From Candidatus Aquidulcis sp. (GTDB lineage Bacteria; Chloroflexota; Anaerolineae; Anaerolineales; UBA4823), in assembly GCA_020723385.1 (NCBI GenBank), contig DYIZ01000019.1, positions 1 through 58,033 on the forward strand: a stretch of DNA of 58,033 bases, given 5' to 3'. The notes beneath the pieces were generated by a model. It was not told the origin of the DNA and made no database searches. It worked only from the letters and a program-made list of their open reading frames with translations. Shown in pieces: positions 14,523-58,033 of this stretch (positions are counted from its first letter, which is position 1; every line of letters starts with the position of its first letter). The position numbers and the translations under genes are program-made.

Positions 14523-16769
14523 ATGAATATCATCGGTCAATCCACCCCCCGCCTCGACGCCATCAGCAAGGTGACTGGAGAAGCGAAATTCCCCGGCGAC
14601 CTCAACCTGCCGAACCAGGCTTACATGAAAATCCTGTTTGCGGCCCGCCCGCACGCCATCGTCCGGCGCATTGACACGTCCAAAGCTGAGGCGTTGCCCG
14701 GCGTGATCGCCGTTTTCACCGCCAAAGATGTACCGGTGAACGAGTACGGCCTCATCATGCCCGATCAGCCTGTTTTGTGCGGCCCCGGCTCATCCAAGCC
14801 GTATACTGACCACGTGCGCTGGGTGGGCGACCAGGTGGCGCTGGTGGTGGCCGAAACCGAGGAGATCGCTGCCAAAGGGCGAAATTTGATCGAGGTGGAT
14901 TACGAAGGTTTGCCGCTGGTCACTGATCCGCAGAATGCCATGCAGGCCGACGCGCCAGTGCTGCACCCCGACCGGGGCAGCAACATCTTCTGCCATTACC
15001 GCATCCGCAAAGGCGATGTTGACGCGGCTTTTGCCGATTCAGATGTGATTGTCGAGGGTGAATACCGCACCCCGGCGCAGGAACACGCTTATCTCCAGCC
15101 CGAAGCCGGGTTGGGATACATTGACGAGCAGGGCCGCGTCGCCGTACAGGTGGCCGGGCAGTGGACGCACGAAGATCAGGAGCAGATCGCGCACGCATTG
15201 GGGCTGCCTCTCGAACAGGTGCGCGTCATCTATCCGGCGATTGGCGGCGCATTCGGCGGGCGCGAGGATATGTCCGTGCAGATCGTGCTGGCATTGGCCG
15301 TGTGGCGGCTCAACCAGCGGGGGATCAACCGCCCGGTGAAGATCATCTGGAGCCGCGAGGAATCCATCGTCGGCCATCATAAGCGCCACCCGTATATTTT
15401 GAAGGCCAAATGGGGCGCGAAGAAAGACGGCAAACTGGTCGCGGCGCAGGTGGAAGTCATCGCCGATGGGGGTGGATACGCTTACACCTCCACCAAAGTG
15501 CTCGGCAACGCCACGCTGATGTGTACCGGCCCGTACGAAATTCCCAACGTGAAGGTTGATTCCTACGCCGTTTACACCAATAACGCTGTGACCGGCGCGT
15601 TCCGCGGCTTTGGCGGGCCGCAGGGAGCCTTCGAAGCCGAGACGCAGATGAACCGGCTGGCCGAAATTCTGGAAATAGATCCCATCGAGATCCGCCGCCG
15701 CAACCTGCTCACCGAGGGGTCGCTGCTCTCCGTGGGAACGCCGCTGCCCAAGGGGGTGAGTCTCCCCCAGGTGGTGGATCGGTTGAAGGTCGAAAGTTCC
15801 AGGTTGAAGGATAACCTTCGATCCTTCGCCAGGCTCAAGGCAGGCTCTTCAACCGCCAACCCTTCGGCAAGCTCGGTGCAGGCTCTTCAACCGCATATCA
15901 AACGCGGCATCGGCTATGGAGCCGCCTACAAAAACGTCGGTTTTTCGTTTGGCGCGCCGGAGCAGTCCACCGCCATCGTTGAGTTGTTCGGCGCGGCGGA
16001 GATCGAGCGAGCCATCGTTCACCATGCCGGCGCGGATGTCGGGCAAGGAACGCACACCATTATGGCGCAGATTGCGGCTGAGACCCTTGGGATTCCGCTC
16101 GCCCGGGTGCAGATGATCGTCTCCGACACGGCAGTCACCGGCAACTCCGGCAGCGCATCGGCCTCGCGCTTGACCTTCATGGCGGGCAATTCCATCAAGG
16201 GCGCGTGCGAGCAGGCGCTGGAAAAGTGGCGCAGCGAGGAACGTCCCGTTTCCGTGACTTTCCAATACCGCCCGCCAAGGACCACCCCCCTCGATCCGCA
16301 AACCGGCAAATCCGAGCCGAATTTCGCTTATGGTTACGTCGCCCAAGCAGTGACGGTCGAAGTGGACACTGAGACCGGGCATGTGCGTATCCTCGATGTG
16401 ATTTCCGTGGACGATGTCGGCAAAGCAATCAACCCGCAGCAAGTGCAGGGTCAGATCGAAGGAGCCGTGGTGCAGGCCGCTGGTTACGCTGTGTTGGAAA
16501 ATTTCGTCCAGAAAGATGGGCGCGTGCTCACCGACAAATTCTCGAACTACCTCATCCCGACGGTGCTCGACGTGCCCGAGCGGGTGCAATCCGTCATTTT
16601 AGAATATCCCGACCCGATTGGCCCCTATGGGGCGCGCGGCATGGCCGAAATGCCCTACCTGCCGTTTGCACCGGCGGTCATCGCCGCGGTGCATGACGCC
16701 ATTGGTGTGTGGTTCCACGAATTTCCGCTGACGCCGGAGAGGGTGTTGAGAGGGTTAGGGAAATTATGA
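14523..16769 (+). CDS. Molybdenum hydroxylase large subunit (xanthine dehydrogenase family)
   Basis: The 748-residue protein has the aldehyde oxidase/xanthine dehydrogenase layout: an a/b hammerhead domain (about 14-125), then two molybdopterin-binding domains. Visible motifs are GGAFGGRED, GAFRGFGGPQ and, near the end, GARGMAEMP with Glu709 in the position of the catalytic glutamate. It should hydroxylate a heterocycle or aldehyde using water. Its iron-sulfur and FAD partner subunits are not in the window, so it either acts alone or uses subunits encoded elsewhere. Residues 420-457 (LKVESSRLKDNLRSF through SSVQALQP) come from a GGTTGAA-type repeat inserted in frame between the two Mo domains. 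It overlaps the YqeB gene by 4 bases. Confidence 0.85.
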   Translation: MNIIGQSTPRLDAISKVTGEAKFPGDLNLPNQAYMKILFAARPHAIVRRIDTSKAEALPGVIAVFTAKDVPVNEYGLIMPDQPVLCGPGSSKPYTDHVRWVGDQVALVVAETEEIAAKGRNLIEVDYEGLPLVTDPQNAMQADAPVLHPDRGSNIFCHYRIRKGDVDAAFADSDVIVEGEYRTPAQEHAYLQPEAGLGYIDEQGRVAVQVAGQWTHEDQEQIAHALGLPLEQVRVIYPAIGGAFGGREDMSVQIVLALAVWRLNQRGINRPVKIIWSREESIVGHHKRHPYILKAKWGAKKDGKLVAAQVEVIADGGGYAYTSTKVLGNATLMCTGPYEIPNVKVDSYAVYTNNAVTGAFRGFGGPQGAFEAETQMNRLAEILEIDPIEIRRRNLLTEGSLLSVGTPLPKGVSLPQVVDRLKVESSRLKDNLRSFARLKAGSSTANPSASSVQALQPHIKRGIGYGAAYKNVGFSFGAPEQSTAIVELFGAAEIERAIVHHAGADVGQGTHTIMAQIAAETLGIPLARVQMIVSDTAVTGNSGSASASRLTFMAGNSIKGACEQALEKWRSEERPVSVTFQYRPPRTTPLDPQTGKSEPNFAYGYVAQAVTVEVDTETGHVRILDVISVDDVGKAINPQQVQGQIEGAVVQAAGYAVLENFVQKDGRVLTDKFSNYLIPTVLDVPERVQSVILEYPDPIGPYGARGMAEMPYLPFAPAVIAAVHDAIGVWFHEFPLTPERVLRGLGKL
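15781..15892. repeat. GGTTGAA-type repeat inside the molybdenum hydroxylase gene
   Basis: GGTTGAAGGTCGAAAG and AGGTTGAAGG are followed by two copies of a second unit (CCTTCGCCAGGCTCAAGGCA and CCTTCGGCAAGCTCGGTGCA), each ending GGCTCTTCAACCG. The unit matches, inverted, the repeat at 29240-29289. It is read in frame here, in two different frames for the two copies. Confidence 0.85.
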
Positions 16770-17582: not shown

Positions 17583-17656
17583 TTCACCGCTGAGATCGCA
17601 GAGAGCGCTGAGAAAACCGATAAAATCTCTGCGGACTCAGCGTGCTTTGCGGTGAA
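17583..17656. repeat. Inverted array of GCAGAG/CGCTGAG words
   Basis: TTCACCGCTGAGATCGCAGA with AGAGCGCTGAG faces TCTCTGCGGACTCAGCG and TTTGCGGTGAA. The outer ends TTCACCGC / GCGGTGAA are exact. It fills the junction between the YqeB and YqeC genes. Confidence 0.7.
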
Positions 17657-17686
17657 ATTCTTGTTTTGGAACAGGGCAATACATTC

Positions 17687-18724
17687 GTGAAACTTTCTAC
17701 AGCTTTCCGCCTGTCTTCCGGCAGTCGAATTGCCCTCGTTGGAGCGGGCGGTAAAACAACGGCGTTGTTCACGCTGGCGCGTGAGCTGACCCCGGCGCTG
17801 GTCGCCGCCAGCACCCATCTCGGCGAAGCGCAAGCGGCGTTGGCCGACCGGCACATTATCTGGCCTGACGACGAGCCGCTGCCAGACATCGAGCCGGTAT
17901 TGGGCCAGGGGGTGACGCTGCTCACCGGTCCGCTGGAAGCTTCCACTGGACGCTTGCAGGGTCTTAATCCCGCCCAATTGGAAAAGGTGGAAGCCCTGGC
18001 TGGCTATCATGATTTACTGCTGCTCATCGAAGCTGACGGGTCACGGATGCGCCCGGTGAAAGCCCCCGCCGCGCACGAACCGGCCATCCCGCCGTTTGTG
18101 GATACCGTGGTTGTCGTGGCGGGATTGTCGGCGATTGGGAAACCGCTGACCGATGAGTGGGTACACCGCTCAGAGATTTTCGCGGCGCTGGCGGGCCTCG
18201 CACCGGGCGGGATCATCACCCCCGAGGGGCTGGCGCGTCTCCTGGTCCATCCCGAGGGCGGCCTTAAGCATATCCCGGCCAAAGCGCGCCGCCTCGCCCT
18301 GCTCAACCAGGCCGATACGACGGAATTGCAAGCCGCCGGGCAGCGAATCGCAGGCCACCTTCTTTCAGCGTTTCATGCGGTGGTCGTAGCACGGTTGAAG
18401 GTTGAAGGTTTTCAAGTTGAAAGTTCATCCCCCAACGACCATCCACCAACTTTCAACCGCCAATCGCCAACCTTCAACCTTCAACCTTCAACCTTCGAAT
18501 CCATCGCTGGAATCGTCCTTGCCGCCGGGGGTTCGGCCCGCTTCGGGCAGCCCAAGCAGCTATTGGATTGGCAGGGCGAGCCGTTCGTGCGGCGCGTGGC
18601 GCACACGGCGCTGCAAGCCGGGCTGTCGCCGGTGGTGGTTGTGACCGGGTCGGATGCCGAGCGGGTAGGGGCGGCGCTGGACGGTCTCGATATTCGCATA
18701 GCCTACAATCCCGATTGGGAGTAG
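17687..18724 (+). CDS. yqeC: YqeC-MocA fusion, 5' part up to an in-frame amber codon
   Basis: The likely start is the GTG at 17687 ([28 protein letters not shown]); the frame opens at 17642 inside the preceding repeat. Residues 1-235 are YqeC-like: a P-loop [23 protein letters not shown] and the [12 protein letters not shown] region, as in the selenium-hydroxylase accessory family. Residues 236-272 are a low-complexity linker encoded by GGTTGAA words. Residues 273-345 begin a MocA-type nucleotidyltransferase ([19 protein letters not shown]), which would transfer a nucleotide to the Mo cofactor. Translation stops at TAG (18722-18724) after NPDWE, although the same frame continues as MocA for 170 more codons. 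As written, the transferase domain is incomplete. Confidence 0.75.
18393..18496. repeat. GGTTGAA-word inverted array inside the YqeC-MocA linker
   Basis: GGTTGAAGGTTGAAGG and further copies (18393-18426) face AACTTTCAACC and four AACCTTC words (18446-18496). It encodes the linker between the two domains without breaking the frame. Confidence 0.85.
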
Positions 18725-19234
18725 GGGCAGAGCACTTCGCTGCGGGCGGGGCTGCAAGGGTTATACCCTAAGTATCTATCGGAAAATTTACCGGATTGTC
18801 ATTGCGAGCGATCTTTGCAAAGCAATCTCGGTTTTGAAAATAATGGGATTGCTTCGTCGCCAAATACGCTCCTCGCAATGACAGGTCAACCATCGAACTT
18901 TCAGATCGAGCCTGGCGGCGCGATCTTCCTGCTCGCCGACCAGCCGCAGACGCCGCCTACGTTGATCCGGTCGCTGGTCGAGATGCATGCCCGCACGCTG
19001 GCGCCCATCATTGCTCCGCTGGTGAATGGGCAGCGGGGCAACCCGGTGCTGTTCGACCGGGCAACTTTCTCCGATCTGCTATCCCTCACCGGCGACGTGG
19101 GCGGGCGGTCGCTTTTCAGCCGCTACCCGGTGGAATGGCTGCCCTGGCATGACGAAGGGGTGTTGTTGGATGTGGATACGGAGGAGGATTATTCGAGGTT
19201 GGTCGGAAAGGGTGACGTAAAACGTAAAACGTAA
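18725..19234 (+). pseudogene. MocA domain, 3' part beyond the amber codon
   Basis: The frame continues directly from TAG with GQSTSLRAGLQGL, the conserved MocA loop, and later AIFLLADQPQTPPTLIRSL, GQRGNPVLF and VLLDVDTEEDYSRL, all typical of the nucleotidyltransferase C-terminal half. A palindromic element (18797-18883) is embedded in frame after GLQGL. The last residues (GDVKRKT) come from ACGTAAA words. No start codon with a ribosome site is found near the beginning, so I call it a remnant cut off by a nonsense mutation. Read-through, or a sequencing or assembly error at one base, would restore a full fusion protein. Confidence 0.65.
18797..18883. repeat. TGTCATTGCGAG palindromic element inside MocA
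   Basis: TGTCATTGCGAG (18797-18808) is exactly inverted at 18872-18883, and AAGCAATC / GATTGCTT pair inside. The element is 87 bases, 29 codons, and keeps the frame. The motif is a widely dispersed bacterial palindrome. Confidence 0.85.
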
Positions 19235-19298
19235 AACGTAAAACGTACACAGGTATACAGGTAAACAGGCATAGCTTTACGTTTTACGCATTACGTTT
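19214..19298. repeat. ACGTAAA-word inverted array
   Basis: Five direct ACGTAAAA-type words (19214-19246) are followed by AGGTATAC, AGGTAAAC, AGGCATAG and then the inverted CTTTACGTTTTACGC and ATTACGTTT (19275-19298). It joins the two MocA genes. Confidence 0.85.
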
Positions 19299-19330
19299 AT
19301 TGTGGTGAAGTTGCTCGTGGAAGGTGATTT

Positions 19331-20032
19331 ATGTTCTCCGCAGTTGTCCTTGCCGCCGGTTTATCGTCACGCATGGGCCGACCGAAGATGACGCTCCCCT
19401 GGGGGGAGACGACGGTCATTGGGAAGGTAGTATCCACGCTGGCGGAGGCTGGCGTGGAGGGGATCGTCGTGGTCACAGGCGGGGCGCGGGAGGCGGTGGA
19501 GGCGGCTGTCGCCGCTCTCGCCCCCAAGCTCTTCCCAGGAAGGGAAAGGGGAATAGGGGTCAGGGTCGTGTTCAACCCGCGTTACGCCGAGGATTCGATG
19601 ATCACGTCGCTGCAAGTGGGGCTGGCGGCGCTTTACCCCCCTCGGTCCCCCCATTTTCGCCCCAAATCTTTTCCCGATTCCATAACCTCCGGCGGGCGAA
19701 AATGGGGGGATGACAGGGGGGCTTTGATGCAAGCTGTCTTTGTCACCCTTGGCGACCAGCCCCAGATCGAAGCCGCGGTGGTGCGGGCGATCATGGATAC
19801 CTACCGGGCGACACACGCCCCGCTGGTCTTGCCGAGCTACCGGATGCGGCGCGGCCACCCCTGGGTGATGGATCGCTCGCTGTGGGCCGAGGCCCTTGCG
19901 GCTCCCGCGTCCGTCACCCTGCGGGACTTCCTCAACGCCCACGCGGCGCAAATTCATTATCTGCCTGTCGAGACGCCCAGTGTGTTAGCCGATCTCGATA
20001 CGCCAGAAGATTATGCGGCTGCCCAGCCTTAA
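19331..20032 (+). CDS. MocA-like molybdenum cofactor nucleotidyltransferase
   Basis: The 233-residue protein opens with the nucleotidyltransferase motif VVLAAGLSSRMGRPKMTLPWG (G-x-S-x-R-M/F-G-x-x-K), and has VTLGDQPQIE with the Mg-binding Asp, RRGHPWVMD and VLADLDTPEDYAAAQP at the end. It resembles MocA, which attaches CMP to molybdopterin for xanthine-dehydrogenase-type enzymes, and so would serve the hydroxylase upstream. It is complete, unlike the MocA domain of the preceding fusion. Residues 105-131 (SPHFRPKSF through WGDDRGAL) are encoded by a palindromic insert. Residues 61-73 (APKLFPGRERGIG) also look like extra, repeat-derived sequence. ATG at 19331; the ribosome site GGAAGG lies a few bases upstream. 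Confidence 0.82.
   Translation: MFSAVVLAAGLSSRMGRPKMTLPWGETTVIGKVVSTLAEAGVEGIVVVTGGAREAVEAAVAALAPKLFPGRERGIGVRVVFNPRYAEDSMITSLQVGLAALYPPRSPHFRPKSFPDSITSGGRKWGDDRGALMQAVFVTLGDQPQIEAAVVRAIMDTYRATHAPLVLPSYRMRRGHPWVMDRSLWAEALAAPASVTLRDFLNAHAAQIHYLPVETPSVLADLDTPEDYAAAQP
19647..19709. repeat. CCCCCATTTTCG palindrome inside the MocA-like gene
   Basis: CCCCCCATTTTCGCCC (19647-19662) is exactly inverted at 19694-19709; the flanks CCCCCCTCGGT and ATGACAGGGGGG extend the symmetry to about 19635-19721. Related hairpins lie at 49851-49962. Confidence 0.85.
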
Positions 20033-27494: not shown

Positions 27495-27589
27495 AGACCC
27501 TAAAGGTCTTTTTGCCAAAGCGAAGCGCTGAATTGGCAAGGGTTTGTGCTGGAAAAGTATTTTGACAGCCGAGGAGACCTTTAGGGTCT
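27495..27589. repeat. Inverted repeat AGACCCTAAAGGTCT ... AGACCTTTAGGGTCT
   Basis: The 15-base arm at 27495-27509 is exactly inverted at 27575-27589, about 65 bases apart, just upstream of the exported-protein gene. Confidence 0.8.
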
Positions 27590-29952: not shown

Positions 29953-29962
29953 GGGGAGTAGT

Positions 29963-30016
29963 AAAACATAAAGCGTAAAACGTAAGGTGTTTTTTACGTT
30001 TTACGCTTTACGTTTT
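29963..30016. repeat. ACGTAAA-word hairpin
   Basis: The 23-base arm at 29963-29985 (AAAACATAAAGCGTAAAACG...) is inverted at 29994-30016 with one mismatch and an 8-base loop. Same word as the array at 19214-19298. It lies between the phosphatase start and the FtsH stop. Confidence 0.88.
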
Positions 30017-30055
30017 AGCGGGTATAGAGGTCAATTCGATGCAGCCCGCTCATGC

Positions 30056-57978: not shown

Positions 57979-58033
57979 CCCGGATTTGGGGTGTGAGAGT
58001 GGGCTTCGCCCACTCTCACACCCCAAATCCGGG
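57979..58033. repeat. Perfect 26-bp hairpin with TTC loop, at window end
   Basis: Bases 57979-58004 and 58008-58033 are exact reverse complements around TTC. The arm starts CCCGGATTTGGGGTGTGAG and ends AGTGGGC. It agrees with the hairpin at 1012-1066 at most positions, and differences are matched on both arms. Confidence 0.9.

Follow-up and report, generated by a model that had tools for sequence, protein, structure and literature searches.

Rickettsia palindromic elements (RPEs), which are about 100-150 bp long and form several families, are described as lying in frame inside unrelated genes and also between genes (PMC2229807, PMC10969869), and Gmk with an RPE insert is reported to be still active, with an altered affinity (PMC2229807). 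Different palindrome groups have been recorded at nearby sites of one Rickettsia gene, a hot spot being one of two explanations offered; that work left undecided whether such a site is a hot spot or carries one old insert that has diverged (PMC3767692). Bacterial MITEs (Correia, ERIC, Coxiella QMITE) are likewise described as small, non-autonomous elements with inverted repeats, some of which give in-frame fusions (PMC2229807, PMC5896051).

Comparable inserts are found in MocA-type nucleotidyltransferase domains, those of a cofactor-building enzyme, in uncultured Anaerolineae. Like the palindromic elements of Rickettsia and Wolbachia, they are in frame, belong to several unrelated families and occur in unrelated genes as well as in intergenic DNA, and, as in RPEs, they do not close the reading frame: that of the second domain considered here (MocA2) is open, and the insert of the first (MocA1) adds no stop codon itself, the TAG of that gene lying upstream. 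They differ from RPEs in residing in another phylum, in that several families share a single loop, in both of two paralogous domains and in many genera, and in the existence of filled and empty sister genomes. The MocA inserts clearly work like protein-coding palindromic elements, and it is on this behavior that the likeness to RPEs is based. With REP elements and their RAYT (Y1) transposases they share the form of short imperfect palindromes in many copies but, unlike REP/RAYT pairs, the two in-gene elements described below were not found beside the Y1-transposase genes of their genome. As regards the target-site duplications of MITEs, none was cleanly visible in eight aligned sister pairs, in which loop residues were often replaced. 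Literature searches returned no report of such inserts for Anaerolineae or MocA and no paper joining MocA cytidylyltransferase with palindromic insertion; a search on the core of the first element returned unrelated papers only.

The window, the whole 58,033-nucleotide stretch of DNA that was analyzed, comes from a 6.43 Mb draft genome (G000) and contains a molybdenum-hydroxylase cluster at 14.5-20 kb, composed of an XDH subunit, YqeB, a YqeC-MocA1 fusion and MocA2 (Table 1). The YqeC part is matched by TIGR03172 and PF19842, and the N-terminal half of MocA1 by PF12804/TIGR03310. PF12804 identifies MocA1 and MocA2 as MobA-like nucleotidyltransferases, the host MocA-type NTP transferase exceeding its gathering score of 27 with 102 bits. 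Both domains fall below the TIGR03310 MocA equivalog cut-off (129.1 bits for MocA2 against a curated 186.45), above which just 12 of the 396 genomes in the class have a match. The reading frames of MocA2, YqeB and XDH are open. What the sequence-only reading had treated as a fusion protein carrying the first insert is actually interrupted by an in-frame TAG at 18722-18724 (context NPDWE*GQS), 13 codons upstream of that insert, and the PF12804 match at 18509-19126 spans MocA1 with this one internal TAG. Relatives have E or another sense residue at the aligned position. The TAG is either a nonsense mutation or a draft-assembly error, and MocA1 in this genome may be dead or misassembled.

Table 1. 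Features of the YqeC-MocA1-MocA2 region (window positions; approx., approximate ends)
Feature	Position	Strand	Evidence or remark
YqeC domain fused to the N-terminal half of MocA1	17642..18724	+	ends at in-frame TAG
Palindrome in the YqeC-MocA1 linker, in frame, 18-nt arms GGTTGAAGGTTGAAGGTT	18393..18493	+	DNA fold z -8.3; linker compared with relatives
Remainder of MocA1, same frame past the TAG, open to the domain end	18725..19234	+	C-terminal half of TIGR03310/PF12804
Insert 1 in loop B of MocA1 (element 1), long imperfect nested inverted repeat	18764..18913 (approx.)	+	alignment; arms shared with other copies
Element 1 left arm TGTCATTGCGAG, outer, perfect, 12 nt	18797..18808	+	
Element 1 right arm CTCGCAATGACA, outer, perfect, 12 nt	18872..18883	+	
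MocA2, intact second MocA-type nucleotidyltransferase, 233 aa	19331..20032	+	PF12804 E 4.8e-29
Smaller insert in loop A of MocA2, about 12 residues (APKLFPGRERGI)	19520..19558	+	alignment
Insert 2 in loop B of MocA2 (element 2), residues about 102-133	19634..19729 (approx.)	+	alignment; low-pLDDT blocks
Element 2 left arm, perfect, 17 nt	19646..19662	+	
Element 2 right arm, perfect, 17 nt	19694..19710	+	

Both inserts fill a single alignment gap, which follows GL..L and precedes (A/G)A(I/V)F.L.DQP; at this point relatives have about 5 residues. This helix-to-strand surface loop, bounded by GL..L on one side and by the strand that ends in DQP on the other, is referred to as loop B. The two inserts are different inverted repeats, and the sequence-only reading was right that unrelated palindromes occupy the same loop of adjacent MocA domains. 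Insert 1 comprises about 50 codons, more than that reading had assigned to it, and folds as DNA with z -2.9; its inverted-repeat score of 12 was matched in none of 200 single-nucleotide shuffles of the loop DNA and lies under the cut-off of 14 used in the window-wide shuffle test. Element 1 is a repeat family with about 30 places in the genome at E<=0.01, and the outer arms GTATCTATCCGAAAATT/GAATTTTCGGATAGGTTC flank other copies, which suggests that nearly all of insert 1 is element 1. Insert 2 (about 32 codons, DNA fold z -4.4) leaves the MocA2 frame open and belongs to a family with about 8 places at E<=2e-4; in three proteins element 2 encodes GRKWGDDRG, GRRWGDERG and GRKWGEDRG, respectively, and element 1 differs. 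Twelve inverted repeats in the window, insert 2 included, score at least 14, and five dinucleotide shuffles of the window gave none at that score, excluding chance inverted repeats.

An AlphaFold2 model of MocA2, built from 42 sequences, has a mean pLDDT of 88.5 and places insert 2 between a helix (residues 90-101) and a strand (135-140). The blocks covering residues 101-130 have average pLDDT values of 61, 55 and 54, and the other blocks 80-98, most of them above 90; insert 2 is thus modeled with low confidence on a fold that is otherwise predicted with confidence. Among solved structures Rv0371c (PDB 2we9; Foldseek E 4e-14), of 190-197 residues, is the nearest match; it shares the host fold and aligns without a counterpart of the MocA2 insert. 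The motifs LAAG and DQP, which we take to be the active-site motifs of MocA domains, follow strands in this fold, so a loop that leads into a strand would be expected on the other side of the fold. Loop B would accordingly face away from the active site, and the inserted MocA proteins presumably stay active. The palindromic character of the smaller insert of MocA2, in loop A, was not significant in a shuffle test (93/100).

In-frame copies of these elements are also found in other genes. In G000, element 2 lies in frame in a radical SAM protein and in a hydantoinase A homologue, where it appears to sit just before a strand (ITFDMGGTSTD); the in-frame copies of element 1 are in one protein resembling glycosyltransferases and one resembling YfhO. 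An element of the type common in family f2 (see below) is in frame in two Eco57I-type restriction-modification proteins, in one HsdM and one HsdS protein, and in an FtsW-type protein of G000. Among 31 exact-arm loci inspected, four are in MocA and five others inside Pfam-supported genes. In-frame palindromes lie in restriction-modification genes at four loci of f2 genomes (L453, L454, L456, L494), and such genes may be a second favored host class.

Other palindromes are scattered through the window. An XDH subunit linker (15780-15893) carries CGGTTGAAG...CTTCAACCG, apparently of the same family as the YqeC-MocA1 linker palindrome 2.6 kb away. Intergenic palindromes of the ACGTAAAAC type occur at 19220-19298 and 29962-30017 and at positions 2921-2980 of another locus (L126); a similar palindrome lies near the best Y1-transposase gene of G000, a possible REP/RAYT pair. 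Similar long hairpins with 26-nt arms and a 3-nt loop lie at 1012-1066 and 57979-58033, and the assembly probably broke at the latter, which ends exactly at the contig end.

To map length variation, MocA domains of Anaerolineae were gathered by ranking on the C-terminal half, which is independent of loop B and would miss very large inserts within that half, together with relatives and named genomes. The survey, drawn from part of the matches listed, comprises 400 usable domains after removal of identical sequences; numbered and named genomes may still share a few near-duplicates. Of 401 distinct sequences one was excluded because its N-terminal half was short, and before that a shorter copy contained in another had been set aside. 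Most of the genomes are draft metagenome assemblies (MAGs), and the sample is enriched in family f2 (210 of the 400 domains). Among these matches, loop B has exactly 5 residues in 312 domains and 17-51 in 43. Loop A, which precedes the VRVV strand and is likewise a helix-to-strand loop, has 8 residues in 302 domains and at least 14 in 11, and a third region that was checked has 15 in 386 and 26 in one. Length variation thus clusters in loop B, the outcome that the sequence-only reading had named as support for its idea, with loop A a distant second insertion site.

Thirty domains have a clear palindrome (score at least 10, reached by at most 2 of 200 shuffles) in loop B; of these, 28 belong to eight genera of the related family f2 and two to G000. 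When whole domains were scanned at a score of at least 12, 25 strong palindromes fell in loop B, one in loop A and seven elsewhere; the same position has been hit repeatedly by different elements, as had been proposed from the two neighboring domains. The single loop A palindrome, in G193, has perfect 15-nt arms. A close form of the AGACCCTAAAGGTCT-type hairpin, which is common between genes in f2 genomes and occurs at 27495-27589 of the window, has been inserted in frame into loop A of MocA in G193 (L215). Family f1, to which G000 belongs, has a loop B of at least 13 residues only in G000 (2 of 42 domains). In family f35, three loci (L199, L218, L225) have a loop B of 13-30 residues with no significant palindrome in its DNA; these are either old, eroded inserts or of another origin.

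The independence of the inserts can be judged from a tree of the 212 domains of f2 and G000, calculated without the loop columns. The presence of a palindrome changes at least 23 times among 30 palindrome and 161 short-loop rows, the remaining 21 rows, with long loops that are not clearly palindromic, being unscored. Seventeen changes fall in MocA1 (22 palindrome, 70 short rows) and six in MocA2 (8 and 91); the count does not separate gains from losses, and the 17 may include losses, while gains are the simpler reading for MocA2, in which 91 of 99 loops are short. Sister genomes provide a closer view. G571 is filled and G537 empty in MocA1 and MocA2 alike, and in another pair MocA2 is filled in G544 and empty in G560. 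The palindromes in MocA2 of G130 and G223 are different. MocA1 of G539 and G213 has different inserts at one place with 96.5% identity of the aligned bases, the G213 insert resembling a trimmed form of that of G539, and the MocA1 inserts of the sisters G571 and G573 have their outer ends in common but not their centers, as if the apical part had been exchanged. Both domains were scored in 93 genomes, of which six (G000, G130, G223, G544, G571, G573) have palindromes in both, 13 in MocA1 only and two in MocA2 only; six of the eight MocA2-filled genomes are thus also MocA1-filled, a co-occurrence with a Fisher p of 7.6e-4 when kinship is ignored.

The main f2 element has the layout ACCCCCTCC - small hairpin - CCTCCCCCAAAT...ATTTGGGGGAGG - GGGGG and forms, when folded, two hairpins on an outer stem (z -6.8 and -8.7 in two examples), the small hairpin being on the 5′ side in the common-form MocA1 inserts among those listed. 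Further loop B palindromes have arms such as CCCCTCTCCC, CCTCCCCTTCC, TCCATCCTGCC or CCTCCCCCATTTTC. At 80 named loci, where genes were called with simple home-made callers, noncoding DNA (35.2 kb) contains 31 palindromes scoring at least 12, and other ORFs (299.7 kb) contain 23; within MocA, loop B has 9 in 4.5 kb, loop A (3.8 kb) has none, and the remaining 76.6 kb have 2. Loop B is therefore denser than the other ORFs and the rest of MocA combined (25 in 376.3 kb; p 2e-10) and than noncoding DNA (p 0.04). Counting exact arms only, with shared ancestry in both numerator and denominator, there are 460 copies of the f2 element in 150 f2 genomes (252 + 208), at least 16 of which are in loop B (210 domains, 116 genomes); if copies were placed uniformly in noncoding DNA, 15.3% of the genome by home-made gene calls, 0.03 would be expected, and the excess is more than 500-fold. 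In 420 kb around MocA of the 80 named genomes, all seven exact-arm copies are within MocA and none in the flanks, which rules out regional enrichment, and 20 random f2 stretches (396 kb) contain none. None of the 56 noncoding palindromes in random f2 stretches is C-rich.

How so many inserts came to lie in one loop can be explained in several ways. Insertion could be uniform, with loop B among the few sites of the proteome that survive it, and the depletion of palindromes in coding DNA outside loop B and the helix-to-strand nature of loop A both fit such tolerance. Tolerance, however, cannot raise a site above neutral DNA, as the exact-arm count in loop B and the confinement of all seven copies to MocA would require, and as a sole cause it seems unlikely. 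The excess casts doubt on tolerance alone without proving targeting, and loop B copies may persist longer than intergenic ones. Somewhat more credible, if still doubtful, is that a mobilizing or repair process prefers loop B by its DNA structure, transcription or resident sequence; the excess over the neutral expectation, its restriction to the loop rather than the region, and the joint filling of MocA1 and MocA2 speak for such guidance. Against it, empty sites among those listed vary widely in sequence and, compared by eye, show no common motif beyond the conserved Leu codon, so that a shared target motif was rejected; the insertion point shifts by a few codons, the frame of the left end differs among inserts, and no clean target duplication was seen in the compared pairs. 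A link of elements 1 and 2 to Y1 transposases was likewise rejected, their motifs being absent at all six such loci in G000, and no mobilizing enzyme was found there. The sequence-only reading, of a loop either uniquely tolerant or guided, is accordingly supported in part: the loop would be tolerant but not uniquely so, since palindromes are found in frame in other genes, in the fusion linker and in loop A as well, and guidance has statistical support in the excess but neither a common target sequence nor a mobilizing enzyme at the six Y1 loci.

A single ancient, inherited insertion whose apical part was turned over and which was often lost, the reading offered for Rickettsia RPE-4/6/7, would account for the shared outer ends and swapped center in G571 and G573, the trimmed appearance of the G213 insert and the small 5′ hairpin of common-form MocA1 inserts. 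It would also have to place unrelated families at one site, reconcile six changes in MocA2 nested among 91 short-loop relatives and the differing palindromes of G130 and G223, and let losses repeatedly restore a 5-residue loop, and is quite improbable. It is also rather unlikely that the G000 cluster is decaying under relaxed selection and gathers palindromes as pseudogenes do. The TAG in MocA1 is consistent with decay, as are the palindromes that within about 4 kb occupy XDH, the YqeC linker, two intergenic gaps and both MocA domains, but MocA2, YqeB and XDH are open, and the f2 MocA domains, among the matches listed, are in open frames without stops.

For a loop in which unrelated elements occupy the same position, their presence changes repeatedly on the tree, sister genomes are filled and empty, and in-frame copies exist in other genes, the best explanation is probably a recurrent spread in the manner of RPEs into a tolerant loop B, followed by exchange or trimming. 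Several unrelated families of short palindromes would spread through Anaerolineae genomes, inserting between genes and sometimes in frame within them. Loop B, leading from a helix to the DQP strand, could accept 15-45 extra residues with the rest of the fold kept, and elements would land and survive there repeatedly in both neighboring domains, to be exchanged or trimmed afterwards. A filter against inserts elsewhere would produce the pattern; because neutral tolerance underpredicts the count more than 500-fold, such a filter alone is incomplete. It explains where inserts sit and not how often, and the concentration in loop B is only partly explained. As the copy number is far above the neutral expectation, we infer an additional preference for loop B, which could arise through targeting, exchange between copies, or benefit and selection. 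A more specific version, in which several families are preferentially delivered to loop B by a mobility or repair mechanism, or by copies recombining with one another, and in which the loop is an in-gene landing pad that the host protein has adapted to carry, is conceivable but unlikely.

Overall, the data favor the hot-spot reading for loop B, and the pattern extends far beyond the two neighboring domains of the window. On this reading a protein can contain a genuine hot spot for small palindromic elements, and the filled, empty and differently filled sister genomes make the Rickettsia question of hot spot or old insert directly testable. The loop B inserts also offer a series, made by nature, of insertions into the loop of a small enzyme, and the MocA inserts a case of selfish DNA adding protein material outside Rickettsiales.
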